Assembly (NCBI GenBank): GCA_946885765.1
Contig: CAMPHD010000105.1
Coordinates: 1 to 9,056 of the forward strand
Source: an uncultured Thalassospira sp.
GTDB lineage: Bacteria; Pseudomonadota; Alphaproteobacteria; Rhodospirillales_A; Thalassospiraceae
DNA: 9,056 nt
Direction of reading: 5' to 3'
Shown here: in pieces, positions 1 through 9,056 of the stretch
How the letters are laid out: every line of letters starts with the position of its first letter
How positions within the stretch are numbered: the stretch's first letter is position 1
Notes under the pieces: generated by a model
Seen by the model: only the letters and a program-made list of their open reading frames with translations
Told to the model about the DNA's origin: nothing
The model's database searches: none
Program-made: the position numbers and the translations under genes

Positions 1-304
1 AGAAATTGCGCGTCACCGACATCAGCGGGATCAACGCAAGATCCTGATAGACGGTGGCGATCCCGGCCTTCAGCGCATCGCGGGGGTCGTTGAAATGAAC
101 CTGCTCCCCTTCAAAAAATATCTCCCCGCTGGTCGGCTGATGCACGCCGGACATCGTCTTGATGAAGGTGGATTTTCCGGCGCCGTTGTCGCCCAGGAGA
201 CAATGGCATTCGCCCGCTATCAGATCGATCGAGACGCCGTTCAGCGCGATGACCGAGCCGAAATGCTTGCTGATATTCACCATTTTCAGGATCGGTTCCG
301 ACAT
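1..304 (-). CDS. Sugar ABC transporter ATP-binding protein, N-terminal part only
   Basis: This is the first 101 residues of a CUT2-type (ribose/inositol/fructose class) ABC ATPase that powers sugar import on the cytoplasmic face of the membrane. The gene runs off the left edge. Reading from the ATG at 304-302, the product begins [18 protein letters not shown]. Walker A is G38-D-N-G-A-G-K44-S-T46, and the Q-loop glutamine is Q87 in VYQD. The signature motif, Walker B and the H-loop lie outside the window, so it cannot be said whether this is a single-domain ATPase (about 260 residues) or a duplicated RbsA-like one (about 500). The start codon follows the permease stop after one base, so the two are surely co-transcribed and probably translationally coupled. 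Family assignment is firm; the substrate is inferred only from the neighbours. Confidence 0.93.
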
Positions 305-305
305 C

Positions 306-1403
306 TCACCGCTCCCCGGTGATGATGCGGCGGATATAGGTGTTCATGATGACGGCAAGGATCAGGATACCGCCCAGGAACACACGGAACAGCGAACTTT
401 CAGCCCCGGCAAAAAACAGCCCCTGCTGAACCACACCGAAAATCAACGCGCCAAGTGCCGCCCCGATGACCGAACCATATCCCCCGGTCAGAAGCGCACC
501 ACCGATCACCACACAGATAATCGCTTCGAACTCTTTCAAAAGCCCGCGGTCTGCTGCGGCCGAACCGAATTCCATCACCTGACAGGTGGCGAAAACCGTG
601 GCACAGAACGCGGTAAACATGAACATCAGGATTTTGACCCGATTAACCGGAACACCGACATAACGCGCTGCCTGCGCATCCCCGCCGGATGCGAAAATCC
701 AGTTGCCGAAACGGGTTTTGGTCAAAAGCCAGTGCCCGAAAATCACCAGAACCACCGCCCAGACCACCAGCATCGGCAGGCCTTCGACAACCGGCTGCCC
801 CTCGCGCGAACCGCGCGTAAAGGTATCTAGCAGGCCAAGATCGGCAAACCACTGGAACAGGTCCTTGAAGATCACGCCACCAAACAGGAAGGCCAGCGGA
901 TCACCCTCTGCGGCTTCCTTAACCCCGCCAATAATCGTCTGGCGCGTGGTCAGGATCGATAGCCAAATGGTCAGACCGCGCAGGATATAAAGGAATGCAA
1001 GTGTAACGATAAAGCTCGGTAACCCGGTCTTGATCACAAGGAACCCGTTTAGCGCGCCAAGCGCGACACAAACGACAAAGGCCGCAATGATCGACAGCCA
1101 CACCGGCCATCCCATATGCACCGACAGAATGGCAATCACTACCCCGGCAAAGCCGATCATCGATCCGACCGACAGATCAAATTCGCCGGCAATCATCAAA
1201 AGACAGGCGCCAACGGCGATAATGGCAAACTGGGCAGAAACCACGCCCCAGTTCTGGACCCCTTCGGGCGAGAACATGCCGCTATCGCCCGCGATCATGA
1301 AGAAGAAAACAAAGACCAGGATCGTGCCGCAAATAGCACCCAGTTCCGGCCGGATCATGGCACGTCGAAGGGTTGAGACTTGCTTGAGCCGCTCGTCCGT
1401 CAT
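306..1403 (-). CDS. CUT2-family sugar ABC transporter permease
   Basis: This 365-residue inner-membrane permease forms the sugar channel. I count about nine or ten hydrophobic segments, for example near residues 22-40, 54-75, 82-95, 103-122, 130-150, 212-230, 255-275, 293-335 and 340-357. The block [12 protein letters not shown] (residues 70-81) matches the conserved GIDLSVGS-type segment of RbsC-like permeases. The segment around residues 230-257 ([12 protein letters not shown]...VPVNRVK) is the usual cytoplasmic loop contacting the ATPase. A hydrophilic stretch at about 155-205 is longer than in RbsC. The start ATG at 1403 has only a weak purine-rich AAAAGAG upstream. The gene lies 75 bp after the binding-protein gene and 1 bp before the ATPase gene. 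It probably acts on a sugar or cyclitol; an inositol-type transporter is the best guess, supported only by resemblance and by the operator sequence. Confidence 0.92.
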
Positions 1404-1436
1404 GACATCACTCTTTTAATGGCAGGTGAGTTTTGC

Positions 1437-1464
1437 CAGGGGGCGGCCAGATGCCAGCCCCCTG
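1437..1464 (-). promoter_or_regulatory. Intercistronic stem-loop between binding protein and permease genes
   Basis: A perfect 8-bp inverted repeat, CAGGGGGC (1437-1444) and GCCCCCTG (1457-1464), encloses a loop with a further GGC/GCC pair (1445-1447 and 1453-1455). No T-run follows on the transcribed strand, so it is not a standard intrinsic terminator. In sugar ABC operons such hairpins after the binding-protein gene commonly protect the upstream mRNA from 3' exonucleases, or partly stop transcription, giving more binding protein than permease. That role is inferred here. Confidence 0.6.
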
Positions 1465-1478
1465 ACGGGAGGTTACAC

Positions 1479-2420
1479 TTAACGGAATTCGCCAGCGTAT
1501 TTTTCAACAAGCTCGATATTGTCCTTGGTAATAAAACCAGGACCGGAATTGATGTTGCCGGACGGCAGAACACCATATCGTGCATAGTTGGTCAGGATGA
1601 CAACCGGCAGGTACCCCTGAAGGTAAGGCTGCTGATCGATGGCGAAATTGATCTCGTCATTCTTGATTGCTTCGGCAATTTCACCCGAAAGATCAAACGT
1701 GCCAAATATGATCTGACCGGCAAGACCGGCATCACGAACGGCGGCCAGCGTCGGATGCGCCGAATTCGGACCAAGGGTCAGGATCGCATCGACATCCGAA
1801 TTGGTGTTCAGATAGGCTGAGACCTTGTTTTTAACTTCCGACGGGTCCATGCCGCTATCGATCATCTGGCTGCCAAGTTCGACACCAAGTGCATCGGCAA
1901 AGCCACGGCAACGTTCAACCGATGCCGGGTTGGTGATGTAATGGTTCACACAGACAAATGATTTTGCACCGGCTGCTGCGGCCCGTTTGCCCGCCCCGAA
2001 ACCGGCATCATATTCCGGCTGGCCAACATGCATCAGCGCGCCAAGCTCGGCCGACTGTTCAACCGTACCCGAATTGATCGTGATCACTGGAATACCGCGA
2101 TCAACCGCATCCATGATCGGGCCTTTAAGCACGTTGAAATCGGCGATGGTAACGATAATGCCATCCGGGTTGGTGGCCGCCGCCTGCTCGACAATACGGG
2201 CCATATCGGCCAGATCGCCGGTCGGCGGGTTACGGTAATCAACCGTGACTTCCATCTGGTCGCCTGCGACCTTGATGGCATTCTTGATGGTGTTCCACCA
2301 GCTGTCCGAGTCCGGTGCATGGCTGATCAGAACGAATTTTTCACCTTCTGCCGATGCCGTACCGGTCAATCCGGCAAAAGCAATCGCAGCGGCCGCAATT
2401 GCGGTCAAAGTCTTCTTCAT
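1479..2420 (-). CDS. Periplasmic sugar-binding protein of the ABC transporter
   Basis: This is a 313-residue periplasmic binding protein of the ribose/inositol (Peripla_BP_4) class. It captures the substrate and delivers it to the permease. It opens with a typical Sec signal peptide: MKK, an Ala-rich hydrophobic core, and a probable cleavage after A24 (TASA|EGEK). The mature part begins with FVLISHAPDSDSWW and later shows the family's alternating beta/alpha pattern, with DGIIVTIAD, GIPVITINSG and DAILTLG strands. The start at 2420 is well supported by GGGAGG six bases upstream. An operator-like palindrome lies about 150 bp upstream and the RpiR-type regulator gene beyond it. The N-terminal segment resembles alphaproteobacterial binding proteins annotated for inositol-like sugars; this is from memory and not proven. 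The ligand therefore remains open. Confidence 0.92.
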   Translation of the reverse strand: MKKTLTAIAAAAIAFAGLTGTASAEGEKFVLISHAPDSDSWWNTIKNAIKVAGDQMEVTVDYRNPPTGDLADMARIVEQAAATNPDGIIVTIADFNVLKGPIMDAVDRGIPVITINSGTVEQSAELGALMHVGQPEYDAGFGAGKRAAAAGAKSFVCVNHYITNPASVERCRGFADALGVELGSQMIDSGMDPSEVKNKVSAYLNTNSDVDAILTLGPNSAHPTLAAVRDAGLAGQIIFGTFDLSGEIAEAIKNDEINFAIDQQPYLQGYLPVVILTNYARYGVLPSGNINSGPGFITKDNIELVEKYAGEFR

Positions 2421-2476
2421 CGTTAGCCTCCCTAGTGGCTTTGAAACGGGGTCACATGTTGCGCCCCGATGCGTCG

Positions 2477-2494
2477 ACTGAATGTTCAGTGAAC
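2477..2494. promoter_or_regulatory. Overlapping dyads in the binding-protein gene leader
   Basis: Two overlapping palindromes share bases here: ACTGAA-TG-TTCAGT (2477-2490) and GTTC-AGT-GAAC (2484-2494). They lie 57-74 bp upstream of the binding-protein start codon, between it and the RpiR-like operator. They could bind a second regulator or form a small RNA hairpin. No regulator is recognised. The sequence differs from the RpiR-type palindrome, so it is not a third copy of that site. Confidence 0.35.
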
Positions 2495-2540
2495 GGTCCG
2501 GCCTGTGATTTTTTAAGGCGTCACTTTTACCGGGCCTCGC

Positions 2541-2562
2541 TTCGGGGTCAGATTGCCCCGAA
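2541..2562 (-). promoter_or_regulatory. GC-rich hairpin downstream of the rpiR-type gene / in the binding-protein leader
   Basis: This is a perfect 7-bp inverted repeat, TTCGGGG (2541-2547) and CCCCGAA (2556-2562), with an 8-base loop. On the minus strand it lies about 50 bp past the regulator's stop codon and 120 bp before the binding-protein ATG. It lacks a T-run on that strand, so it is a weak terminator candidate. It may instead be a leader hairpin of the transporter mRNA. Confidence 0.4.
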
Positions 2563-2570
2563 TTCGATAT

Positions 2571-2588
2571 ATGGAATTTTTATTCCAT
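2571..2588. promoter_or_regulatory. Operator-like palindrome before the transporter operon (RpiR-type site 1)
   Basis: An 18-bp dyad with perfect 7-bp arms, ATGGAAT (2571-2577) and ATTCCAT (2582-2588), surrounds TTTT. Its core reads GGAA-N6-TTCC, the motif I recall for the RpiR-type inositol repressor IolR of Sinorhizobium. It sits in the AT-rich 194-bp gap between the regulator and binding-protein genes. The same architecture recurs at 3504-3521 with one changed base per arm. On the minus strand both copies are preceded by the 9-mer ATCAAAATA. It is best read as the binding site by which the adjacent regulator controls the transporter operon. Confidence 0.7.
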
Positions 2589-2614
2589 TTTTATTTTGAT
2601 GCAACAAATTTTTT

Positions 2615-3439
2615 CTATTCCGCTGTCTGATCCCGCTTTGCGCCGATTGCCACCGCCAGCGAAATCGCCAGCGAAAGCGTGGCCGACAGCGCCCTGAATG
2701 CGCCAACATCAACTTCGGATACTGCAAGGGTCAGGGCATCAATCCGGCGAAGCGGGCTGGTCATCGTATCGGTAATCGCCACCACCGGGTTGCCGAGTCC
2801 CCGTGCATAGGCCGCCAGATCGATGGTTTCCTGCGAATAGGGCGCAAAGGTAATGGCGATCATCACATCGCCCTTTCGGATGGCGTGACGCGGGTTAAGC
2901 TTCCCCACCCCGTCATGCAGAACCGCCGGGATATCCATCTTTTCAAACGCATAGGATAAATAACTCGCGACCGGAAAGGCGCGCCTGAAGCCGACAATAT
3001 GGATCATCGGGGCCGCGGCCAGCACATTGACCGCATCCTCAAGCAAACCGGCATCGATTGATGATGCCAGATTTTCCAGCGACAGGCGCCCGGCCTCGAC
3101 AAATTCCGCCAAAAGCGCACTGGGGCTATCGGCCCCGCTTGCCCGCAGATTTTCCAATCGCGTCGCATAATCGGGCCATTTCTGGGCATATGTTTCGCGA
3201 AACATCTTCTGCATTTCGGAAAAACCCGAAAAACCCAGCAACTGGCAAAACCGCATGAAGGCGGATGGTTGCACCCCGGCCCCGACCGAAAGTTCCGCCA
3301 CGGTCGAAACCGCAATACGGTCGGTATTCTGGGCCACGAATTCGGCACATTGCCTCAACCTCTTGGGCATTGCCTCCGATATTTCAGCCAGCCGATGATT
3401 GAATTCCTCAAGCGATACCGGCGCGGTTTGGTCCGTCAT
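2615..3439 (-). CDS. RpiR/MurR-family transcriptional regulator (HTH + SIS)
   Basis: This is a 274-residue regulator of sugar-phosphate or cyclitol metabolism. The N-terminal HTH_6 domain spans about residues 10-90. It includes the FVAQNTDRIAVSTVAELS stretch and the recognition region QPSAFMRFCQLLGFSGFSEMQ, typical of RpiR proteins. The C-terminal SIS domain (about 125-260) carries MIHIVGFRRAFPVASYLSYA, and KGDVMIAITFAPYSQETIDL followed by NPVVAITDT. SIS domains bind phosphosugars, so the inducer is probably a phosphorylated or otherwise early intermediate of the imported sugar. I start at ATG 3439 because AGGAAA lies upstream at good spacing. The longer reading frame from 3496 has no ribosome-binding site, adds a low-complexity lysine/threonine stretch and would begin close to the operator. 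It is divergent from the dehydrogenase gene. A palindrome in its own promoter region suggests autoregulation. Confidence 0.9.
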   Translation of the reverse strand: MTDQTAPVSLEEFNHRLAEISEAMPKRLRQCAEFVAQNTDRIAVSTVAELSVGAGVQPSAFMRFCQLLGFSGFSEMQKMFRETYAQKWPDYATRLENLRASGADSPSALLAEFVEAGRLSLENLASSIDAGLLEDAVNVLAAAPMIHIVGFRRAFPVASYLSYAFEKMDIPAVLHDGVGKLNPRHAIRKGDVMIAITFAPYSQETIDLAAYARGLGNPVVAITDTMTSPLRRIDALTLAVSEVDVGAFRALSATLSLAISLAVAIGAKRDQTAE

Positions 3440-3503
3440 GGCGTACGGGTTTCCTGTTTTTGTTTTTGCTTGACGCTGGATGTATTCCATGATCATCCAT
3501 TTT

Positions 3504-3521
3504 ATAGAATAAAAATTCTAT
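3504..3521. promoter_or_regulatory. Operator-like palindrome in the divergent promoter region (RpiR-type site 2)
   Basis: An 18-bp dyad with perfect arms ATAGAAT (3504-3510) and ATTCTAT (3515-3521) flanks AAAA. It is the same design as the 2571-2588 site, with GGAA changed to AGAA and TTCC to TTCT. It lies 27 bp before the dehydrogenase ATG and 64 bp before the regulator ATG. On the minus strand it overlaps a TATAAA-like -10 (complement of 3501-3506). Its own arm TAGAAT resembles a -10 on the plus strand. A protein bound here could block both divergent promoters. Confidence 0.68.
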
Positions 3522-3548
3522 TTTGATATCGGCAGGGAGTCCAGCGAA

Positions 3549-4676
3549 ATGGCATCAATCGGAATAGGCCTGATCGGCACCGGTTTCATGGGCAAGGCGC
3601 ATGCGCTTGCATTTGGCGCGGTGCGCGCCGTGATGGGCGATGTTCCCGATGTGCGGCTTGAACTGCTGTGCGACACCCCGGCGGACAAGGCCCAAACCAT
3701 GGCCGATCAGTTCGGTTTTGCCCGCGCCACCGATGACTGGAAGGCGATGATTGCCGATCCGGCGGTTGATATCGTCTCGATCACCACCCCAAATATGCTG
3801 CATTTCGACATGGCATTGGCGGCGATTGCCGCGGGCAAGCATGTCTATTGCGAAAAGCCGCTTGCCCTGACACTCGATCAGGCACGCGCGATGCGCGATG
3901 CAGCGCGCAATGCCGGGGTCAAAACCATGGTCGGCTACAATTACATCAAAAACCCCGCCTTCACCCATGCCTGTAAATTGCTCCGCGAGGGTGCGATTGG
4001 CGATATCGTGCATTTCCGCGGCTGGGTGGACGAAGATTATCAGGCCAATCCCGAACTGCCCTGGACCTGGCGCAGCACGATTGCCGATGCCGGATTGGGG
4101 GCGTTGGGGGATATGGGATGCCATCTGGTATCGATGACCTATGGCCTTGTCGGCCCGATCGACAGCCTGATTGCCGATATGCAGACCGTTCACGATACCC
4201 GCCCGCTGGCCGATGGATCGGGTCGGGCAAAGGTCGAAAACGAGGATACCGCAACCGCCCTTGTCCGCTTCGCCAGCGGTGTTCAGGGCAGCATCTCGAC
4301 CTCGCGTTCGGCATGGGGCCGCAAAAGTCGGCTGGCGTGGGAAGTCCACGGCACCAGGGGCATGCTGTGCTTTGATCAGGAACGCATGAACGAATTGCAG
4401 CTTTATCGCAACGATGGCCCGGCGGCAAAGCAGGGCTTCACCACCATCCTGACCGGCCCCGAACATCCGCCTTATGGCAATTTCTGCCCCGCACCGGGTC
4501 ATCAGCTTGGCTTCAACGACCTCAAGGTCATCGAAGCCGCTGCCCTGCTGCGCGCCATCCGCGACAATCACGCCGCCTATCCGGGCTTTGACGATGCGTT
4601 CGAGTTTGAAAAGGTCATTCACGCGGTTGCCATGTCGGCCCGCGAGGAACGGCGCGTAAAAATCGACGACCTGTAA
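3549..4676 (+). CDS. Gfo/Idh/MocA-family NAD(P)-dependent oxidoreductase
   Basis: This 375-residue cytoplasmic dehydrogenase belongs to the glucose-fructose oxidoreductase / inositol dehydrogenase family. The N-terminal Rossmann fold has G10-T-G12-F-M-G15 for the dinucleotide. The family's C-E102-K103-P104-L motif supplies the usual catalytic lysine. G187-D188-M-G-C-H192 supplies the Asp and His of the DxxxH pair, matching the Lys/Asp/His triad of inositol dehydrogenase. Length is normal for the family. The start at 3549 has AGGGAG at good distance. It is transcribed away from the regulator and shares the operator at 3504-3521, so it probably oxidises the imported sugar or cyclitol, or a 3-keto derivative. 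The exact substrate (myo-inositol, an isomer, another sugar) cannot be told from sequence alone. The enzyme is not close enough, to my eye, to canonical IolG to give that symbol. Confidence 0.9.
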   Translation: MASIGIGLIGTGFMGKAHALAFGAVRAVMGDVPDVRLELLCDTPADKAQTMADQFGFARATDDWKAMIADPAVDIVSITTPNMLHFDMALAAIAAGKHVYCEKPLALTLDQARAMRDAARNAGVKTMVGYNYIKNPAFTHACKLLREGAIGDIVHFRGWVDEDYQANPELPWTWRSTIADAGLGALGDMGCHLVSMTYGLVGPIDSLIADMQTVHDTRPLADGSGRAKVENEDTATALVRFASGVQGSISTSRSAWGRKSRLAWEVHGTRGMLCFDQERMNELQLYRNDGPAAKQGFTTILTGPEHPPYGNFCPAPGHQLGFNDLKVIEAAALLRAIRDNHAAYPGFDDAFEFEKVIHAVAMSAREERRVKIDDL

Positions 4677-4707: not shown

Positions 4708-4896
4708 TCAGGAATCCGACTTATGTTCGGGTTTCCCCTTCCGCTTGCCCGATGCCAGCTCCTCAAGCTCCTGCTCGGACATGGTTTCTTCCATCTCTTT
4801 CGCAGCACCTTTAAGCTCGCTTTTCTTCTTCTCACCCCGTTTGACCGAAAGCGCCAAACCGGCCGCCATCTGCTGTGCTTTGGATTTTGCAGGCAT
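4708..4896 (-). CDS. Small DUF3008-type protein
   Basis: This is a 62-residue, highly charged, lysine- and glutamate-rich soluble protein. The sequence begins MPAKSKAQQMAAGLALSVKR and ends with SGKRKGKPEHKSDS. It carries the SELKGAAKEMEETMSEQELEELAS core that I recognise from the DUF3008 family (MPAKSKAQQ... KRKGLPEHK) of widespread small bacterial proteins of unknown function. No membrane segment or cysteine is visible; the middle is probably helical. The ATG at 4896 is chosen because CAGGGA lies about eight bases upstream and the family starts at MPAKS. The open frame extends further upstream (to about 5070), but that part looks noncoding. It is convergent with the dehydrogenase gene and has a striking inverted repeat just before the ribosome-binding site. 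There is no obvious functional link to either neighbour. Confidence 0.85.
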   Translation of the reverse strand: MPAKSKAQQMAAGLALSVKRGEKKKSELKGAAKEMEETMSEQELEELASGKRKGKPEHKSDS

Positions 4897-4910
4897 TGTA
4901 TCGTCCCTGA

Positions 4911-4940
4911 TTGATGTTTGCCCTATTTGCCAAACATCAA
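4911..4940 (-). promoter_or_regulatory. Perfect 10-bp inverted repeat upstream of the DUF3008 gene
   Basis: TTGATGTTTG (4911-4920) and CAAACATCAA (4931-4940) are exact reverse complements separated by ten bases. The repeat ends 14 bp before the DUF3008 ATG, directly upstream of the CAGGGA ribosome-binding site. It could be a protein operator over the promoter or, if transcribed, a leader stem-loop affecting translation. TTTGCC also occurs twice in direct orientation inside it (4917-4922 and 4926-4931). No known regulator motif is recognised. Confidence 0.6.
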
Positions 4941-5259
4941 AACGGTCGGGAAGTTCCGAAAAGACGATAAAATCGCTGCCACAAAGGCAGATTTTTCTGA
5001 TTTTGGCGGCATGGATGTGAAACCAGCTACGTCTTTCATCCTCTGGTATGATCAAATATCCACGAAGCAAGTTTGGAACGACTTTCCGACCGAAATCCCG
5101 ATGTTACACTCTTGCGTCGCAATTTTACTGTGTGATTGCCTCAAGGTTCCTGCCACCTGCCTTCCAATTCGCAATAGATTTTCAAATCTTTTTAATCGCT
5201 CGTTGTTCATCAAGGGCGAATGAAGAGCAGGTTACCTGCCGCATGAAAAGAGGGAGACT
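4941..5259. other. Noncoding stretch with minor dyads
   Basis: No convincing gene is seen on either strand; the open frames here have atypical composition and no ribosome-binding sites. The stretch is more AT-rich than the flanking genes. It holds two short dyads: AGATTT-TC-AAATCT (5176-5189), followed by four T's, and GCAGGT-T-ACCTGC (5227-5239). The first has an AT-only style stem with a two-base spacer and is more operator-like than terminator-like. The second lies just outside the structured region that follows and could mark a regulatory site or an element boundary. Promoters for the DUF3008 gene (leftward) and for the RNA or gbc operon (rightward) should lie here, but none is clear. Confidence 0.4.
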
Positions 5260-5503
5260 TTGGGTGCAATTGATAGCCCGTGCCATGCACGAGACTGGCA
5301 ACCCGCATGCGGGAACCTGTCTTGCCCGTATTGGCCGCCCTGTAATTGACAGCGCGGGCTATGCCGGACTGTGCCAACAGGGGCCAATACCAGGCGATTT
5401 TCTGTCCTCTGGCTGCTTCCGTGACGAGCGCCCGAAACCTGCTGGCAATCGCGCCAGTCGGATGAAAGTCGCAGCATCCTGTTTCCTTGCACCCAAGACA
5501 GGT
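5260..5503 (+). ncRNA. Large structured noncoding RNA candidate with pseudoknot, upstream of gbcA
   Basis: The stretch is dense in complementary segments. Helix A pairs TTGGGTGCAA (5260-5269) with TTGCACCCAA (5487-5496). Helix B pairs ACCTGTCTTG (5315-5324) with CAAGACAGGT (5494-5503). A and B cross, giving an H-type pseudoknot or two alternative folds; only three bases are shared. Within lies helix C, GTATTGGCC (5328-5336) with GGCCAATAC (5382-5390), continued after a 2-base bulge by CCTGT/ACAGG (5339-5343, 5377-5381). Smaller hairpins are CGTGC/GCACG (5279-5291), CCCGCATGCGGG (5302-5313), CTGGC/GCCAG (5442-5457) and GGATG/CATCC (5460-5479). GCTGC/GCAGC (5412-5416, 5471-5475) may add a longer pair. 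No protein-like frame runs through it. The strand is inferred from the gbc genes; the helices themselves do not fix it. The class is unknown. An orphan HEARO/IscB omega RNA is one possibility, a gbc leader element another. No IscB or TnpB gene is present. Confidence 0.55.
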
Positions 5504-5517
5504 CCATTATCTATAAT
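5487..5517 (+). promoter_or_regulatory. Possible sigma-70 promoter for gbcAB
   Basis: TATAAT (5512-5517) is a perfect -10 hexamer 62 bp before the gbcA ATG. The best -35 is TTGCAC (5487-5492) at a long 19-bp spacing, so a weak or activator-dependent promoter is implied. The -35 falls inside the 3' strand of the structured region. If this promoter is used, the gbc mRNA starts near 5524, after the RNA structure. Confidence 0.35.
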
Positions 5518-5523
5518 TCCGCA

Positions 5524-5540
5524 AGGACCGACAAAGTCCT
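5524..5540 (+). promoter_or_regulatory. Small leader hairpin before gbcA
   Basis: AGGAC (5524-5528) and GTCCT (5536-5540) form a 5-bp stem with loop CGACAAA about 40 bp before the gbcA ATG. It would be at the very 5' end of an mRNA started from the TATAAT at 5512, where it could protect the end. Its role is unproven. Confidence 0.3.
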
Positions 5541-5579
5541 CTCTTTCGTGGTACCGCTTAGACGCCGAGGTATCTGATC

Positions 5580-6854
5580 ATGCGCTTTTCTTCTGACATA
5601 CAAGATCTCGTGTCACGCCGCGAAAAAGGCAAAAGCCTCGAAGCGCCATTTTATAACGCCCCGGAAATCCTCAAGCTTGATGTCGAGGCGATCTTCAATC
5701 AGCACTGGATTTTCGTCGCGGTCGAACCGGAACTGCCCGAACCCGGTGATTGCATCACGGTCGAGGTGGGTCGCGCCTCCATCCTGCTTCTGCGCGGCGA
5801 CGATATGGAAATCCGCGCCTTTCACAATGTGTGCCGTCACCGCGGGGCAAAGCTGATCGACGAACGGGCGACCACAATCGGCAATATCGTCTGTCGTTAT
5901 CACGGCTGGACCTATAACGAAGATGGCGACCTGATTCTGGCCGAACATATGGGTGCGGGCTTCGATAAAAGCTGCCACGGGCTAAAGGCCGTCCATATCC
6001 GCTCCATCGCCGGACTGATTTTCATCTGCCTTGCCGACGAAGCACCCAAAGACATCGATGAAATGGCGCGCGTGATGACGCCCTATATCGCGCCGCACGA
6101 TATCGTCAATTGCAAGGTTGCCTTCACGTCTGACCTGATCGAGGAAGGTAACTGGAAGCTGACGATGGAAAACAACCGCGAATGCTACCACTGCGAAGCC
6201 AACCATCCGCAATTGACCGTGCCGCTTTCCGAATTCGGTTTTGGTTTCTCCCCTGATGAGATGGACGAACGCCGGTCCGAAGACGTCAAGAAATACACCA
6301 ACGCGGTTGAAAACGATCATAAACGCTGGGAATCCTGCGGCCTGCCATCCGCAGAAGAAGATCACCTTTCCGATGTCACCGGCTTCCGCACCATGCGCCT
6401 GCCCCTGATGTGGGAAGGAGAATCCCAGACGCTCGACACCAAGGTCGCCTCCAAAAAGCTGCTCGGCAAATTCACCGATCCGAAGCTTGGCGGGCTCAGC
6501 TTCTGGACTCATCCGAATTCCTGGCACCATTTCATGAGTGACCATATCGTCACCTTCTCCGTCCTGCCGCTGTCAGCAGATCGCACGCTGGTGCGCACCA
6601 CCTGGCTTGTCCACAAGGACGCGATTGAGGGCGAAGACTACAATCTCGATAACCTGACCCAGGTCTGGAAAATGACCAACCAGCAGGACGCCGATCTGGT
6701 GCGCATTGCCCAGCTTGGCAGTGAACAGCCATCCTACGAGCCCGGCCCCTATTCAAGCTTTACCGAACCGCATGTCGAAGCATTCTGTGACTGGTACATC
6801 GCACGGATGAAAAAGCATCTGGCCAAAGACAAATCCGGGGCGGTTACCAAATGA
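5580..6854 (+). CDS. gbcA: Glycine betaine demethylase, Rieske oxygenase subunit
   Basis: This 424-residue Rieske non-heme iron oxygenase oxidatively removes one methyl group from glycine betaine, giving dimethylglycine and formaldehyde. The Rieske [2Fe-2S] ligands are C85-R-H87 and C105-R-Y-H108. The catalytic iron site is in NWKLTMENNRECYHC: H204 and H209 are ligands, E201 is the bridging acidic residue three before the first His, as in carnitine and betaine oxygenases, and D370 in TNQQD is the likely third ligand. Blocks such as AFHNVCRHRG, NWKLTMENNRECYHC, WLVHKDAIEG and YEPGPYS match the Pseudomonas GbcA pattern as I recall it. Stachydrine demethylase (Stc2) is the closest alternative. 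The start at 5580 has GAGG nine bases upstream. It overlaps the reductase gene by 4 bp, and a BCCT transporter follows. The 62-bp leader carries a TATAAT and a small hairpin; the structured region lies before it. Confidence 0.92.
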   Translation: MRFSSDIQDLVSRREKGKSLEAPFYNAPEILKLDVEAIFNQHWIFVAVEPELPEPGDCITVEVGRASILLLRGDDMEIRAFHNVCRHRGAKLIDERATTIGNIVCRYHGWTYNEDGDLILAEHMGAGFDKSCHGLKAVHIRSIAGLIFICLADEAPKDIDEMARVMTPYIAPHDIVNCKVAFTSDLIEEGNWKLTMENNRECYHCEANHPQLTVPLSEFGFGFSPDEMDERRSEDVKKYTNAVENDHKRWESCGLPSAEEDHLSDVTGFRTMRLPLMWEGESQTLDTKVASKKLLGKFTDPKLGGLSFWTHPNSWHHFMSDHIVTFSVLPLSADRTLVRTTWLVHKDAIEGEDYNLDNLTQVWKMTNQQDADLVRIAQLGSEQPSYEPGPYSSFTEPHVEAFCDWYIARMKKHLAKDKSGAVTK

Positions 6855-7984
6855 TGACCCAGACCAATCCACCGGCCACCGGCCAAGCCGCCCCGTCCGG
6901 CGACGATGAAAACTTTACCGAAGCCACCCGCATCCCGCTTTGGGACCCGGAACAGGATGACGTTCTGGTCTGCCGGCAGGTGCGGCAGGAAACCCATGAC
7001 GTAAAGACATTCGTCTTTTCGGCCCGCGAACCGCGCGCGTTTCGCTTCTATCCGGGCCAGTACATGACGTTTGAATTGCCCGTCGAAGGCATGGTCACGC
7101 GCAGTTACACGGTTTCGGGATCGGCCGCCCGTCCCTACCGGATCGAAATCACGGTCAAACGCGTACCGGGTGGTCCCGGTTCGAACTGGCTGCATGATTA
7201 TATGCTGCCGGGCAAGGAGGTGAATGTTTCCGGCCCGTTCGGTGAATTCACCACCGACGCCACCGGCGAGGAAAAGCTTCTGTTCATTTCCGCTGGCAGC
7301 GGCATCACCCCGATGATGTCGATGACCCGCACGGCCTGCGATCTGTCCGAACCGTCAGATTTGTGCTTCATTCACGCCGCACGCACCCCGGCCGACATCA
7401 TTTTCCGCGATGAACTCTCGCTTCTCGCGGCCCAGAACCCCGGCCTGAAACTTGCCTTCACCTGCAGTACGGCAGCCGCCCATCATAGCTGGAGCGGCTA
7501 TACCGGCCGCTTCAACATCCAGATGCTGTCGCTCATGCTGCCTGATTTCAAGGACCGCAAGGTGTTCTGCTGCGGTCCTGCCCCCTTCATGGAAGGTGTC
7601 CGCAACATGCTGCGCGATACCGGTTTCGACATGGAGAAATATTACGAGGAAAGCTTCGACTTCGGCGCGGAAACCGCCGGAACCTTTGAAGAGCCTGTCG
7701 CGGCCCCGGAAATAAGCGGCCAGACTTTCCGGGTGAGCTTCACCAAAACCGGCCATGTTGTCGAATGTGGTCCGGGCATGACGGTTCTGTCAGCCGCCCG
7801 CGAGGCGGGGATATTGCCAATGTCCTCCTGCCAGCGCGGCATCTGCGGCACCTGCAAGTCAAAACTGATTTCCGGTGAAGTCGATATGCAACACGGTGGC
7901 GGCATCCGCCAGCGCGAAATAGATCAGGGAAAAGTCCTGATTTGTTGTTCGACACCTTTGTCGGACATCGAGGTCGAACTCTAA
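6851..7984 (+). CDS. gbcB: Glycine betaine demethylase, ferredoxin-type reductase subunit
   Basis: This 377-residue electron-transfer partner of GbcA carries electrons from NAD(P)H via FAD and a [2Fe-2S] cluster to the oxygenase. After a flexible N-terminus of about 35 residues comes an FAD domain with R84-S-Y-T. The NAD(P) domain has GSGITPMMS (149-157) and CCGPAPFME (240-248). The C-terminal plant-type ferredoxin domain has C327-x4-C332-x2-C335-x29-C365, all four cluster cysteines present. The ATG at 6851 lies within the gbcA stop (ATGA, 4-bp overlap), implying translational coupling. A second ATG at 6854 is possible. There is little Shine-Dalgarno signal, consistent with coupling. Length and domain order match GbcB; related reductases of stachydrine or carnitine oxygenases are the alternative. 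Confidence 0.92.
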   Translation: MMTQTNPPATGQAAPSGDDENFTEATRIPLWDPEQDDVLVCRQVRQETHDVKTFVFSAREPRAFRFYPGQYMTFELPVEGMVTRSYTVSGSAARPYRIEITVKRVPGGPGSNWLHDYMLPGKEVNVSGPFGEFTTDATGEEKLLFISAGSGITPMMSMTRTACDLSEPSDLCFIHAARTPADIIFRDELSLLAAQNPGLKLAFTCSTAAAHHSWSGYTGRFNIQMLSLMLPDFKDRKVFCCGPAPFMEGVRNMLRDTGFDMEKYYEESFDFGAETAGTFEEPVAAPEISGQTFRVSFTKTGHVVECGPGMTVLSAAREAGILPMSSCQRGICGTCKSKLISGEVDMQHGGGIRQREIDQGKVLICCSTPLSDIEVEL

Positions 7985-8138: not shown

Positions 8139-9056
8139 ATGAGTGACGTAAAAACAGCGGCAGAAGAAACGCCGCCAGAAGGCCAGATCGATACAGACTA
8201 CAATATTGGTCAGGACAATATCGAAGGCAAACTGGGCCCCATCGGGTTCGATATCCATAACCCCGTCTTTGCCGTCTCCGCCCTGACCGTTATCGCGTTC
8301 GTTGCCTACACACTGCTGATGCCAGATCAGGCGAACTCTGTTTTCAGCCTGTTATTCTCCGAAGTCACACAGGGCTTCGACTGGTTCTTCATCGGTGCGG
8401 CCGATATTTTCGTAATCCTCTGCCTCGTCGTCGTCGTCAGCCCCTATGGCAAGGTCCGGCTTGGTGGACGGGACGCAACACCTGATTTCAGCTATGTAAG
8501 CTGGTTTTCCATGCTGTTTGCTGCTGGCATGGGGATCGGGCTTATGTTCTATGGTGTCTCGGAACCGCTAAGCCACTTCTCGTCTTCGCTGGGCGGCACT
8601 GCCGTGGGTGCCGATGGCATTCGCACCGACTGGGCCCCGCTGGGTGCCGCGGCCACGCAGGAAGAAGCCGTTCGTCTGGGCATGGCGGCCTCGATTTTCC
8701 ATTGGGCACTTCACCCATGGGCGATTTATGCCATCGTCGCACTCAGCCTTGCCCTGTTTAGCTATAACAAAGGTCTGCCGCTGACCATCCGTTCCGCCTT
8801 CTATCCGATCTTCGGTGAACGCGTCTGGGGATGGCCGGGACATATCATTGATATTCTTGCTGTTTTTGCGACACTTTTCGGTCTTGCCACCTCGCTTGGT
8901 CTTGGTGCGGTTCAGGCAAACTCCGGCTTTAACAAACTGTTCGGAATGCCTATCGATACCACCTGGCAGGTTATCCTGATTGTCGGCATCACCTCCATCG
9001 CCCTGTTCTCGGTCGTTCGCGGCATTGAATCAGGCGTCAAGCTGTTATCCGAAATC
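8139..9056 (+). CDS. BCCT-family betaine/choline transporter, N-terminal part
   Basis: The first 306 residues of a sodium-coupled betaine/choline/carnitine transporter are present; the gene runs off the right edge (full-length members are 500-650 residues). A hydrophilic, acidic tail of about 40 residues precedes the first membrane segment (about 43-61). The glycine-rich stretch G130-M-G-I-G134 followed by LMFYGVSEP is the family's TM3 motif, as in BetP. The helix FHWALHPWAIY (187-197) keeps the two Trp and one Tyr that form the aromatic betaine cage in BetP; later cage residues are outside the window. The start at 8139 has a strong AGGAG eight bases upstream. Its place after gbcAB argues that glycine betaine is the substrate and that it serves catabolism as much as osmoprotection. 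Choline or dimethylsulfoniopropionate transport cannot be excluded. Confidence 0.9.
   Translation, partial: MSDVKTAAEETPPEGQIDTDYNIGQDNIEGKLGPIGFDIHNPVFAVSALTVIAFVAYTLLMPDQANSVFSLLFSEVTQGFDWFFIGAADIFVILCLVVVVSPYGKVRLGGRDATPDFSYVSWFSMLFAAGMGIGLMFYGVSEPLSHFSSSLGGTAVGADGIRTDWAPLGAAATQEEAVRLGMAASIFHWALHPWAIYAIVALSLALFSYNKGLPLTIRSAFYPIFGERVWGWPGHIIDILAVFATLFGLATSLGLGAVQANSGFNKLFGMPIDTTWQVILIVGITSIALFSVVRGIESGVKLLSEI

Follow-up and report, generated by a model that had tools for sequence, protein, structure and literature searches.

Introduction

In Escherichia coli, the small upstream ORF uof is coupled to the main gene fur, and an sRNA regulates the pair at the start of the upstream ORF (uORF). 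Translational coupling of neighboring genes has been described by RNA-unfolding and reinitiation models (PMC12548453, PMC6728339). In Mycobacterium tuberculosis, a B12 riboswitch acts on ppe2 via uPPE2, an out-of-frame uORF that overlaps the start of the gene, and the expression of ppe2 needs translation of the uORF, mainly by termination-reinitiation (PMC11260477).

In this study, we analyzed the region upstream of a gbcA-like gene in the window, i.e., the whole 9,056-nt stretch of Thalassospira DNA. The first-pass annotation of this DNA had placed an orphan structured RNA with a pseudoknot or a conformational switch at 5260–5503, built on long-range helices A, B, and C, and had seen no coding signal in it. 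We propose, with a probability of about 0.56, that the element is a structured mRNA leader with a translated uORF that is coupled to gbcA, and that regulation is probably exerted at the start site of the uORF. The leader has covariation support, lies outside Rfam, and stands before an operon that probably degrades a major marine osmolyte. What would be new is a structured leader that relays its effect through a long, barely conserved uORF and that has two apparent coupling routes. To our knowledge, a strongly structured RNA combined with an open frame whose peptide is barely conserved has rarely been described, and a literature search of titles and abstract openings found no paper on this leader.

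The ppe2 leader is the nearest described system that we found. As there, a structured leader would act on the gene through translation of an overlapping uORF. The ppe2 leader is reported to combine a known B12 aptamer with an AUGA overlap and a gene that lacks a Shine-Dalgarno sequence (SD), whereas the gbcA leader, which is known from sequence alone, has no known aptamer, a uORF of 61–140 codons, and a gbcA gene preceded by an SD. The uORF and gbcA overlap by 17 nt (8 nt in Celeribacter) or, in clades B and C, are separate, with a putative anti-SD helix. If our reading holds, the gbcA leader works likewise, but we do not regard it as a ppe2-type member because no aptamer is known here. Compared with the coupled gene pairs described above, an overlap of stop and start and an upstream ribosome that opens a structure over the next SD may both occur here; in contrast to those pairs, the upstream frame encodes no recognizable protein, and lineages of one gbcA leader appear to take the two different routes. 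The likeness to uof-fur is a small upstream ORF that would be coupled to the main gene and regulated at its own start, whereas uof is short and no sRNA is known for the gbcA leader.

Results

Gene context and promoter region

The features of the window are collected in Table 1. From the ORF list, we take positions 1–4676 to carry look-alikes of a sugar ABC uptake set, an RpiR-type regulator, and a Gfo/Idh-type oxidoreductase. The best NCBIfam match of the gbcA product was NF058607 (glycine betaine monooxygenase oxygenase subunit) at 430.5 bits, below the cutoff of 670, and the nearest solved chains were 3n0q, 3vca, and 4qup (ring-hydroxylating dioxygenase/demethylase). Glycine betaine is a likely substrate of this GbcA-like enzyme. 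The stop codon of gbcA and the start codon of gbcB overlap as ATGA (6851–6854), and the two enzymes may be translationally coupled too.

The promoter-like block upstream of the leader was conserved in the gbcA upstream regions of 25 sequences, including the window, and partly, by eye, in three Celeribacter sequences. With GTCGCA and TTGaCTTA kept from Thalassospira to Celeribacter, the block is likely to be an activator site, and we presume that it resembles AraC/GbdR-type half-sites. Transcription probably starts just downstream of it, near 5195.

Table 1. Positions of the leader elements and neighboring genes in the window
Feature	Position	Strand	Basis or remark
Small ORF, 120 codons or shorter	4708–5070	-	Between upstream cluster and gbcA promoter; no NCBIfam match
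Promoter/operator-like block (CGTCGCA..TACTG..TTGaCTTA..TTCTgCC..AATAGATTTT)	5118–5190	+	Conserved; putative promoter role
Strongly conserved RNA core: P1, SD, GUG start, P2	5223–5283	+	BLAST, alignments, pattern matches
P1 hairpin, GCAGG-UUA-CCUGC	5227–5239	+	25 distinct sequences aligned
SD of uORF, AGGGAG	5251–5256	+	AGGGAGA in 28/28 alignment rows; putative role
Helix A, 5' arm (UUGGGUGCAA)	5260–5269	+	Overlaps GUG start of uORF; repeat search
P2 small hairpin, GGGU (5262–5265)/GCCC (5276–5279)	5262–5279	+	Holds first two bases of GUG start
uORF, 110 codons, GUG 5264, UGA 5594–5596	5264–5596	+	Overlaps gbcA by 17 nt
P3-like hairpin of the window's lineage, CGUGC-CAU-GCACG	5279–5291	+	Longer P3 proper in other clades
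P4-like hairpin of the window's lineage, GAC-U-GG ... CCCGcaugCGGG ... CC-U-GUC	5293–5321	+	Read by eye, pairing then counted
Helix A, 3' arm (UUGCACCCAA)	5487–5496	+	10/10 pairs in 6/6 clade-A sequences
SD of gbcA, GAGG	5567–5570	+	Inside uORF in window; conserved context; putative role
gbcA-like Rieske oxygenase, quaternary-amine type	5580–6854	+	NF058607, nearest solved chains
gbcB-like reductase	6851–7984	+	NF058606, 355.2 bits, below cutoff of 500
Presumed BCCT-type transporter, cut by window end	8139–9056	+	ORF list

Distribution of the leader

A search of 60 genomes with 5200–5600 gave matches in 24, all within the 29 genomes of the same genus (Thalassospira-type), and in none of the 31 others; the nearest genome, G001, had 60% of sampled words in common with the window. 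Five matches spanned the whole query (75–90%), and the remaining ones lay mainly around 5223–5282. A gbcA homologue stood beside the match in all 26 matched loci, and a gbcA orthologue (E below 1e-240) was present in the same 24 genomes as the leader and absent from the other five of the genus. The pattern of the conserved core was found exactly once per genome in 23 of the 29, and P1 is of a variant form in G012, the 24th of the genomes matched by BLAST. A second GbcA-like gene (L074–L079), 43–46% identical, occurs in nine of the 29 genomes and is followed in L074 by a GbcB-like ORF (39%). The leader does not precede this second copy, because its pattern occurs at most once per genome.

With a looser pattern, a species-wide collection yielded 21 loci: 17 from Thalassospira, one from a Rhodospirillales MAG, and three from Celeribacter, which we take to belong to another order than Thalassospira. 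A gbcA homologue lay directly downstream in 19 of these loci, and the other two sequence pieces end before it. Judged from sequence, the leader–gbcA module is common to Thalassospira and Celeribacter, because the Celeribacter proteins closely match those of the window (76% identity for GbcA and 82% for GbcB) and because L090 and L101 also have a transporter homologue next to these genes, downstream. The module may have been transferred between the orders. Model R1, run with stricter filters over 385 genomes of the class (nine candidates scored per genome among the matches listed), gave two matches, both in the same genus, and no carrier outside it. Five gbcA homologues from other families (58–61% tblastn identity) had, by eye, no such leader.

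Structure and covariation

The + strand of 5240–5530 gave a modestly better fold than shuffled sequences did (z −2.29, reached by 3 of 200), and the − strand did not (z −1.05, reached by 29 of 200). In distant relatives, the BLAST block covered about positions 24–82 of the query. Outside clade A, i.e., outside the window's own clade, which consists of the window and L001–L005, four helices were counted: P1 (5 bp), P2 (4), P3 (7), and P4 (9), 25 pairs in total, of which RNAalifold proposed 23 unaided.

Among the 19 sequences outside clade A (18 distinct), 14 of the 25 pairs showed two-sided changes, and 91.8% of the cells paired. This count of two-sided changes was matched by none of 500 shuffles and by none of six slid versions; kinship inflates the shuffle-based figures, as the alignments cover one genus and three Celeribacter sequences, while the slid controls keep the kinship and were still far lower. 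Thirteen of the 14 pairs lie in P3 and P4. P1 and P2 hardly vary: P1 was paired in 100% of cells, with a two-sided change at one pair in one of the 25 distinct sequences, and P2 in 99%, with U-G changed to U-A in four of the 25, one pair broken in one, and no two-sided change in any. The 19-sequence alignment used 19 of 25 sequences, since the P3/P4 region of the six clade-A sequences could not be aligned; these were restored in an alignment of 28 of 28 sequences (25 distinct, including Celeribacter). The latter gave 92.0% paired cells, 14 pairs with two-sided changes, and 58 two-sided cells against 20.8 expected, figures that belong to an alignment built through, and fitted to, a covariance model, with four distinct clade-A rows having no letters in P3/P4. 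The leader set excludes L025 and L026, the second matches of G012 and G003.

In clade A, shorter hairpins (5279–5291 and 5293–5321), which the covariance model could not place, replace P3 and P4. The P3-like hairpin had 5 of 5 pairs in the window and L001–L003 and was lost in L004–L005 (2–3 of 5). The outer and middle pairs of the P4-like hairpin were complete (5/5) in all six clade-A sequences, and its inner pairs, in the same register, numbered 4 of 4 in three of the six and 2 of 4 in the other three; with its 3' side, the hairpin reaches into the 5' arm of helix B. Clade-B leaders were very conserved in their 3' part as well, where one hairpin had three compensated pairs (columns 281–302).

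The leader is, by covariation found mostly in P3 and P4, a structured RNA. Rfam gave no match at the gathering score across the whole window; at E values up to 10, 5030–5640 had one chance match, to mir-BART2 (20.4 bits against 60), and no credible match to HEARO (RF02033), RNase P, 6S, or a riboswitch, which the first-pass annotation had named as models to check. A tRNA/tmRNA search found none. That annotation's central proposal, a conserved structured RNA upstream of gbcA and outside Rfam, is thus supported by the compensatory changes and the lack of an Rfam match. Its boundaries need revision: the element starts about 40 nt further upstream, near 5223, and is part of the whole leader up to gbcA.

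Long-range helices A, B, and C

The repeat search found the two perfect (100%) 10-bp inverted repeats, 5260–5269/5487–5496 (helix A) and 5315–5324/5494–5503 (helix B), and a 9-bp one (100%), 5328–5336/5382–5390, which is the main part of helix C. In 2000 dinucleotide shuffles, the frequency with which 5260–5503 held two perfect repeats of 10 bp or longer was 0.0005. When 244-nt windows were tiled over the 9 kb in 61-nt steps (n = 145), five contained at least one perfect repeat and none contained two. The repeats had therefore been located and spelled correctly at the outset, and they are rarer than expected by chance.

The helices drawn from them fared unequally among the six clade-A sequences. 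Helix A was kept in full in the relatives; a single U-A pair became U-G, and no pair changed on both sides. Helix B was partly broken (8 of 10 pairs in L001–L003 and 9 of 10 in L004–L005, the latter with G-U pairs), and the main part of helix C was lost (4 of 9 pairs in L001–L003 and 2 of 9 in L004–L005, with 4–5 of 5 in its small extension). These pairing counts in the five close relatives rule out helices B and C as conserved elements. The compensatory changes anticipated for the three helices were absent from them and were found elsewhere in the RNA. Of the three, relatives support helix A alone; it may still be real, with its 5' arm covering the GUG of the uORF. The idea of a pseudoknot or switch fits a helix A lying over that start codon, on the strength of conserved pairing and not of covariation. 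The leader also contains a 38-nt direct repeat (5265–5302 and 5341–5378, 71% identity), perhaps a fossil duplication of a hairpin.

The upstream ORF

Seven bases separate the SD of the uORF from its GUG at 5264. Downstream of this GUG, the frame was open for 61–140 codons in all 28 sequences, comprising 25 from the genus, with the window, and three from Celeribacter, each of the latter having 71 codons. Against dinucleotide shuffling, the Fisher combined P for openness was 9.8e-6 over ten representatives with less than 70% identity (21 of the 28 names were offered and ten kept), with single values of 0.01–0.37. Between GUG and gbcA, eight stop codons fell in the uORF frame, all past the frame end, vs 33 and 28 in the other frames. 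The region in which no coding signal had been seen at first therefore does hold one, a long open frame that has an SD and a start codon of its own.

The linker between P1 and GUG varied from 24 to 27 nt among 21 loci, so the frame is maintained only downstream of GUG. The distance from GUG to gbcA was congruent to 1 modulo 3 in seven of the ten representatives and in 23 of the 28 sequences. Internal gaps within clades were two of 3 and two of 1 in clade A, where the single ones compensate each other (window vs L001–L003, by eye), one of 12 in clade B, one of 3 and one of 1 in clade C, and none in Celeribacter; clade D, with gaps of 2 (twice), 7, 18, 74, and 151, departs from multiples of three.

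The peptide itself was barely conserved, and by eye few residues past the first ones are common to the clades. It had no NCBIfam match; three similar predicted proteins were found, and these contained no Pfam domain. dN/dS was computable for 13 of 15 pairs and ranged from 0.30 to 1.58, lying between 0.30 and 0.71 in eleven, and codon-position counts were weakly skewed. The openness effect is modest, and dN/dS and codon positions give no clear signal of protein-coding constraint. The frame seems to be kept more than its product, for which reason we favor passage of the ribosome over a function of the peptide. In predictions for 18 of the 28 leaders, with 20 shuffles each, the GUG was less open than the mean of the shuffled controls in 15, and the SD of the uORF was mostly paired, similarly to its controls.

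Two apparent routes to gbcA

The stop codon of the uORF lay inside gbcA in 10 of the 28 sequences. Counted from the A of the gene's start codon, it came 14 nt later in the window, L001–L003, L016, L021, and L024, and 5 nt later, with an overlap of 8 nt, in the three Celeribacter sequences. In the other 18, it lay 29–151 nt before gbcA. In 13 of the 14 clade B/C sequences, the uORF contained at codons 54–58 an anti-SD, ACCUCGGC, complementary to the gbcA SD over 8–10 nt, with a G-U pair in one of the 13; the fourteenth, L008, has CCUCGGCU, which by eye keeps 8 bp in another register. L004, L005, and L018 showed neither the overlap with gbcA nor a clear anti-SD. An alternative pairing of ACUUUGG (5257–5263) with the gbcA SD was dropped, as it fails by eye in several clades.

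In the accessibility predictions, the gbcA SD fell in the lowest 10% of the shuffled controls, with an openness of 0.00–0.04, in five of the seven clade B/C leaders (L020, L022, L009, L012, and L006) and not in L008 and L023. Among the other leaders of the genus, this was the case in one of eight (L017), and for the window, L001, L005, L016, L018, L021, and L024, closure did not exceed that of the controls. In the three Celeribacter leaders, the gbcA SD was more open than the controls (0 of 3 in the lowest 10%). It is suggestive, as a pattern noticed after the fact, that the two putative coupling routes complement each other across lineages.

Discussion

In the reading that we prefer, the element would be the 5' leader, approximately 390 nt long, with which the gbcA-gbcB operon of Thalassospira (and Celeribacter) begins, and it would carry a translated uORF. 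Transcription would start near 5195 under the control of the upstream activator site, and ribosomes would enter the uORF at the P1–SD–GUG–P2 module. They would then translate the uORF in a frame whose openness is statistically maintained and whose amino acids hardly matter, and this translation would make gbcA accessible in either of two ways. In the window, L001–L003, L016, L021, L024, and the three Celeribacter sequences, ribosomes would cross the SD and start codon of gbcA, stop just inside the gene, and reinitiate. In clades B and C, where the uORF ends earlier, its ribosomes would cover the anti-SD ACCUCGGC, which would otherwise pair with the gbcA SD. Regulation would act on the start of the uORF, e.g., if the GUG were concealed in helix A or P2. 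If this is confirmed, one orthologous leader would show an evolutionary swap between overlap with reinitiation and unmasking of an SD.

A riboswitch-like leader, in which the P1–P2 module binds a small molecule, the structure alone matters, and the open frame is incidental, is an unlikely alternative. Aptamers typically combine a core of conserved sequence with hairpins that vary and covary, and helix A together with the crossing repeat would permit alternative folds. However, the core coincides with an SD and a GUG start whose downstream frame stays open, and Rfam offers no match. Moreover, in the genus, class, and species-wide scans, the leader was found before one gene only and not before several genes of a pathway, as is usual, if not obligatory, for riboswitches.

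It is rather unlikely that translation of the uORF instead shields the nascent leader from Rho-type termination and so controls read-through into gbcA and not initiation at gbcA. Such shielding would agree with a frame that is open across most of the leader, with an excess of C over G in all 28 uORFs (ratio 1.04–1.55), and with the barely conserved peptide, which is expected if ribosome passage alone matters. The C excess is, however, small in Thalassospira, and attenuation alone accounts neither for the uORFs that run into the gbcA start (10 of the 28 sequences) nor for the anti-SD of clades B and C.

We consider it very unlikely that the uORF is a real, quickly evolving gene for a small protein with its own function. 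Its frame is open in every sequence, and dN/dS is about 0.4–0.6 in several pairs (e.g., 0.43 for window–L001 and 0.41 for L010–L009), but it exceeds 1 in L005–L004 (1.11) and L012–L013 (1.58, on few changes), the clades share few residues and no family matches, and the covarying hairpins P3 and P4 occupy the same bases. A trans-acting sRNA or a mobile-element RNA (HEARO/OMEGA-like) would also be a folded RNA in an intergenic region, but the lack of an Rfam match, the position beside gbcA, the absence from the five genomes of the genus without gbcA, and an ORF list in which no transposase or nuclease was noticed by eye make this extremely improbable.

The uORF-coupled leader that we favor can be extended to a bolder and quite doubtful proposal, namely that P1–SD–GUG–P2 is a new aptamer class of marine alphaproteobacteria, which would bind glycine betaine or another methylated amine and gate a long uORF of nearly free sequence, whose ribosomes would pass the signal on to gbcA, in some lineages by reinitiating and in others by masking an anti-SD. 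We know of no natural riboswitch for glycine betaine or other methylated amines, and a search for a betaine-sensing RNA could begin with the gbcA leader.

Similar layout at PotA-like start sites

When the pattern of hairpin, SD, and GGGUG was searched in 394 genomes of the Celeribacter family, it gave seven matches and, among the matches listed, no control match. One of the seven was a gbcA leader, five were the starts of genes for PotA-like transporter ATPases, and the last (L112) is not a transporter start and was set aside as a probable chance match. The proteins of the five PotA-like genes (366–368 aa) begin at the GUG of the same hairpin–SD–GUG layout, and one of them matched NCBIfam potA at 370.7 against a cutoff of 355.6. 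These genes show that the layout can serve as a start site, which independently supports the start of the uORF. In the same 394 genomes, R1 gave four weak matches besides Celeribacter (E of 1e-4 to 0.045 per genome), which were rejected as gbcA leaders since they are PotA-like start sites.

For a wider set of potA-like leaders from Rhodobacteraceae, 35 loci were taken and one was dropped for want of an SD. As in the gbcA leader, a GGGAG SD follows a hairpin by about 8–12 nt, the hairpin being GCAGG-loop-CCUGC in 7 of the 34, and five leaders have their GUG start within GGGUG. Unlike in the gbcA leader, the start codon in the potA-like ones is that of an actual gene for a transporter ATPase, there is no uORF, and the hairpins vary in sequence; a hairpin of a different sequence stood 8–15 nt before the SD in 15 of the 34. 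We count the resemblance as one of layout and not as proven kinship, because other members of the potA-like family have other hairpin sequences. Thirteen of the 34 hairpins reached 0.05 or less against letter shuffles. The PotA-like genes of Rhodobacteraceae (L106, L108, L109, L111, L113–L116, and L117–L146) thus often have a hairpin about 8–15 nt before the SD, with stems that vary (GCAGG, GGCCG, GCGGG, and GGUCG), which may be a separate regulatory element.
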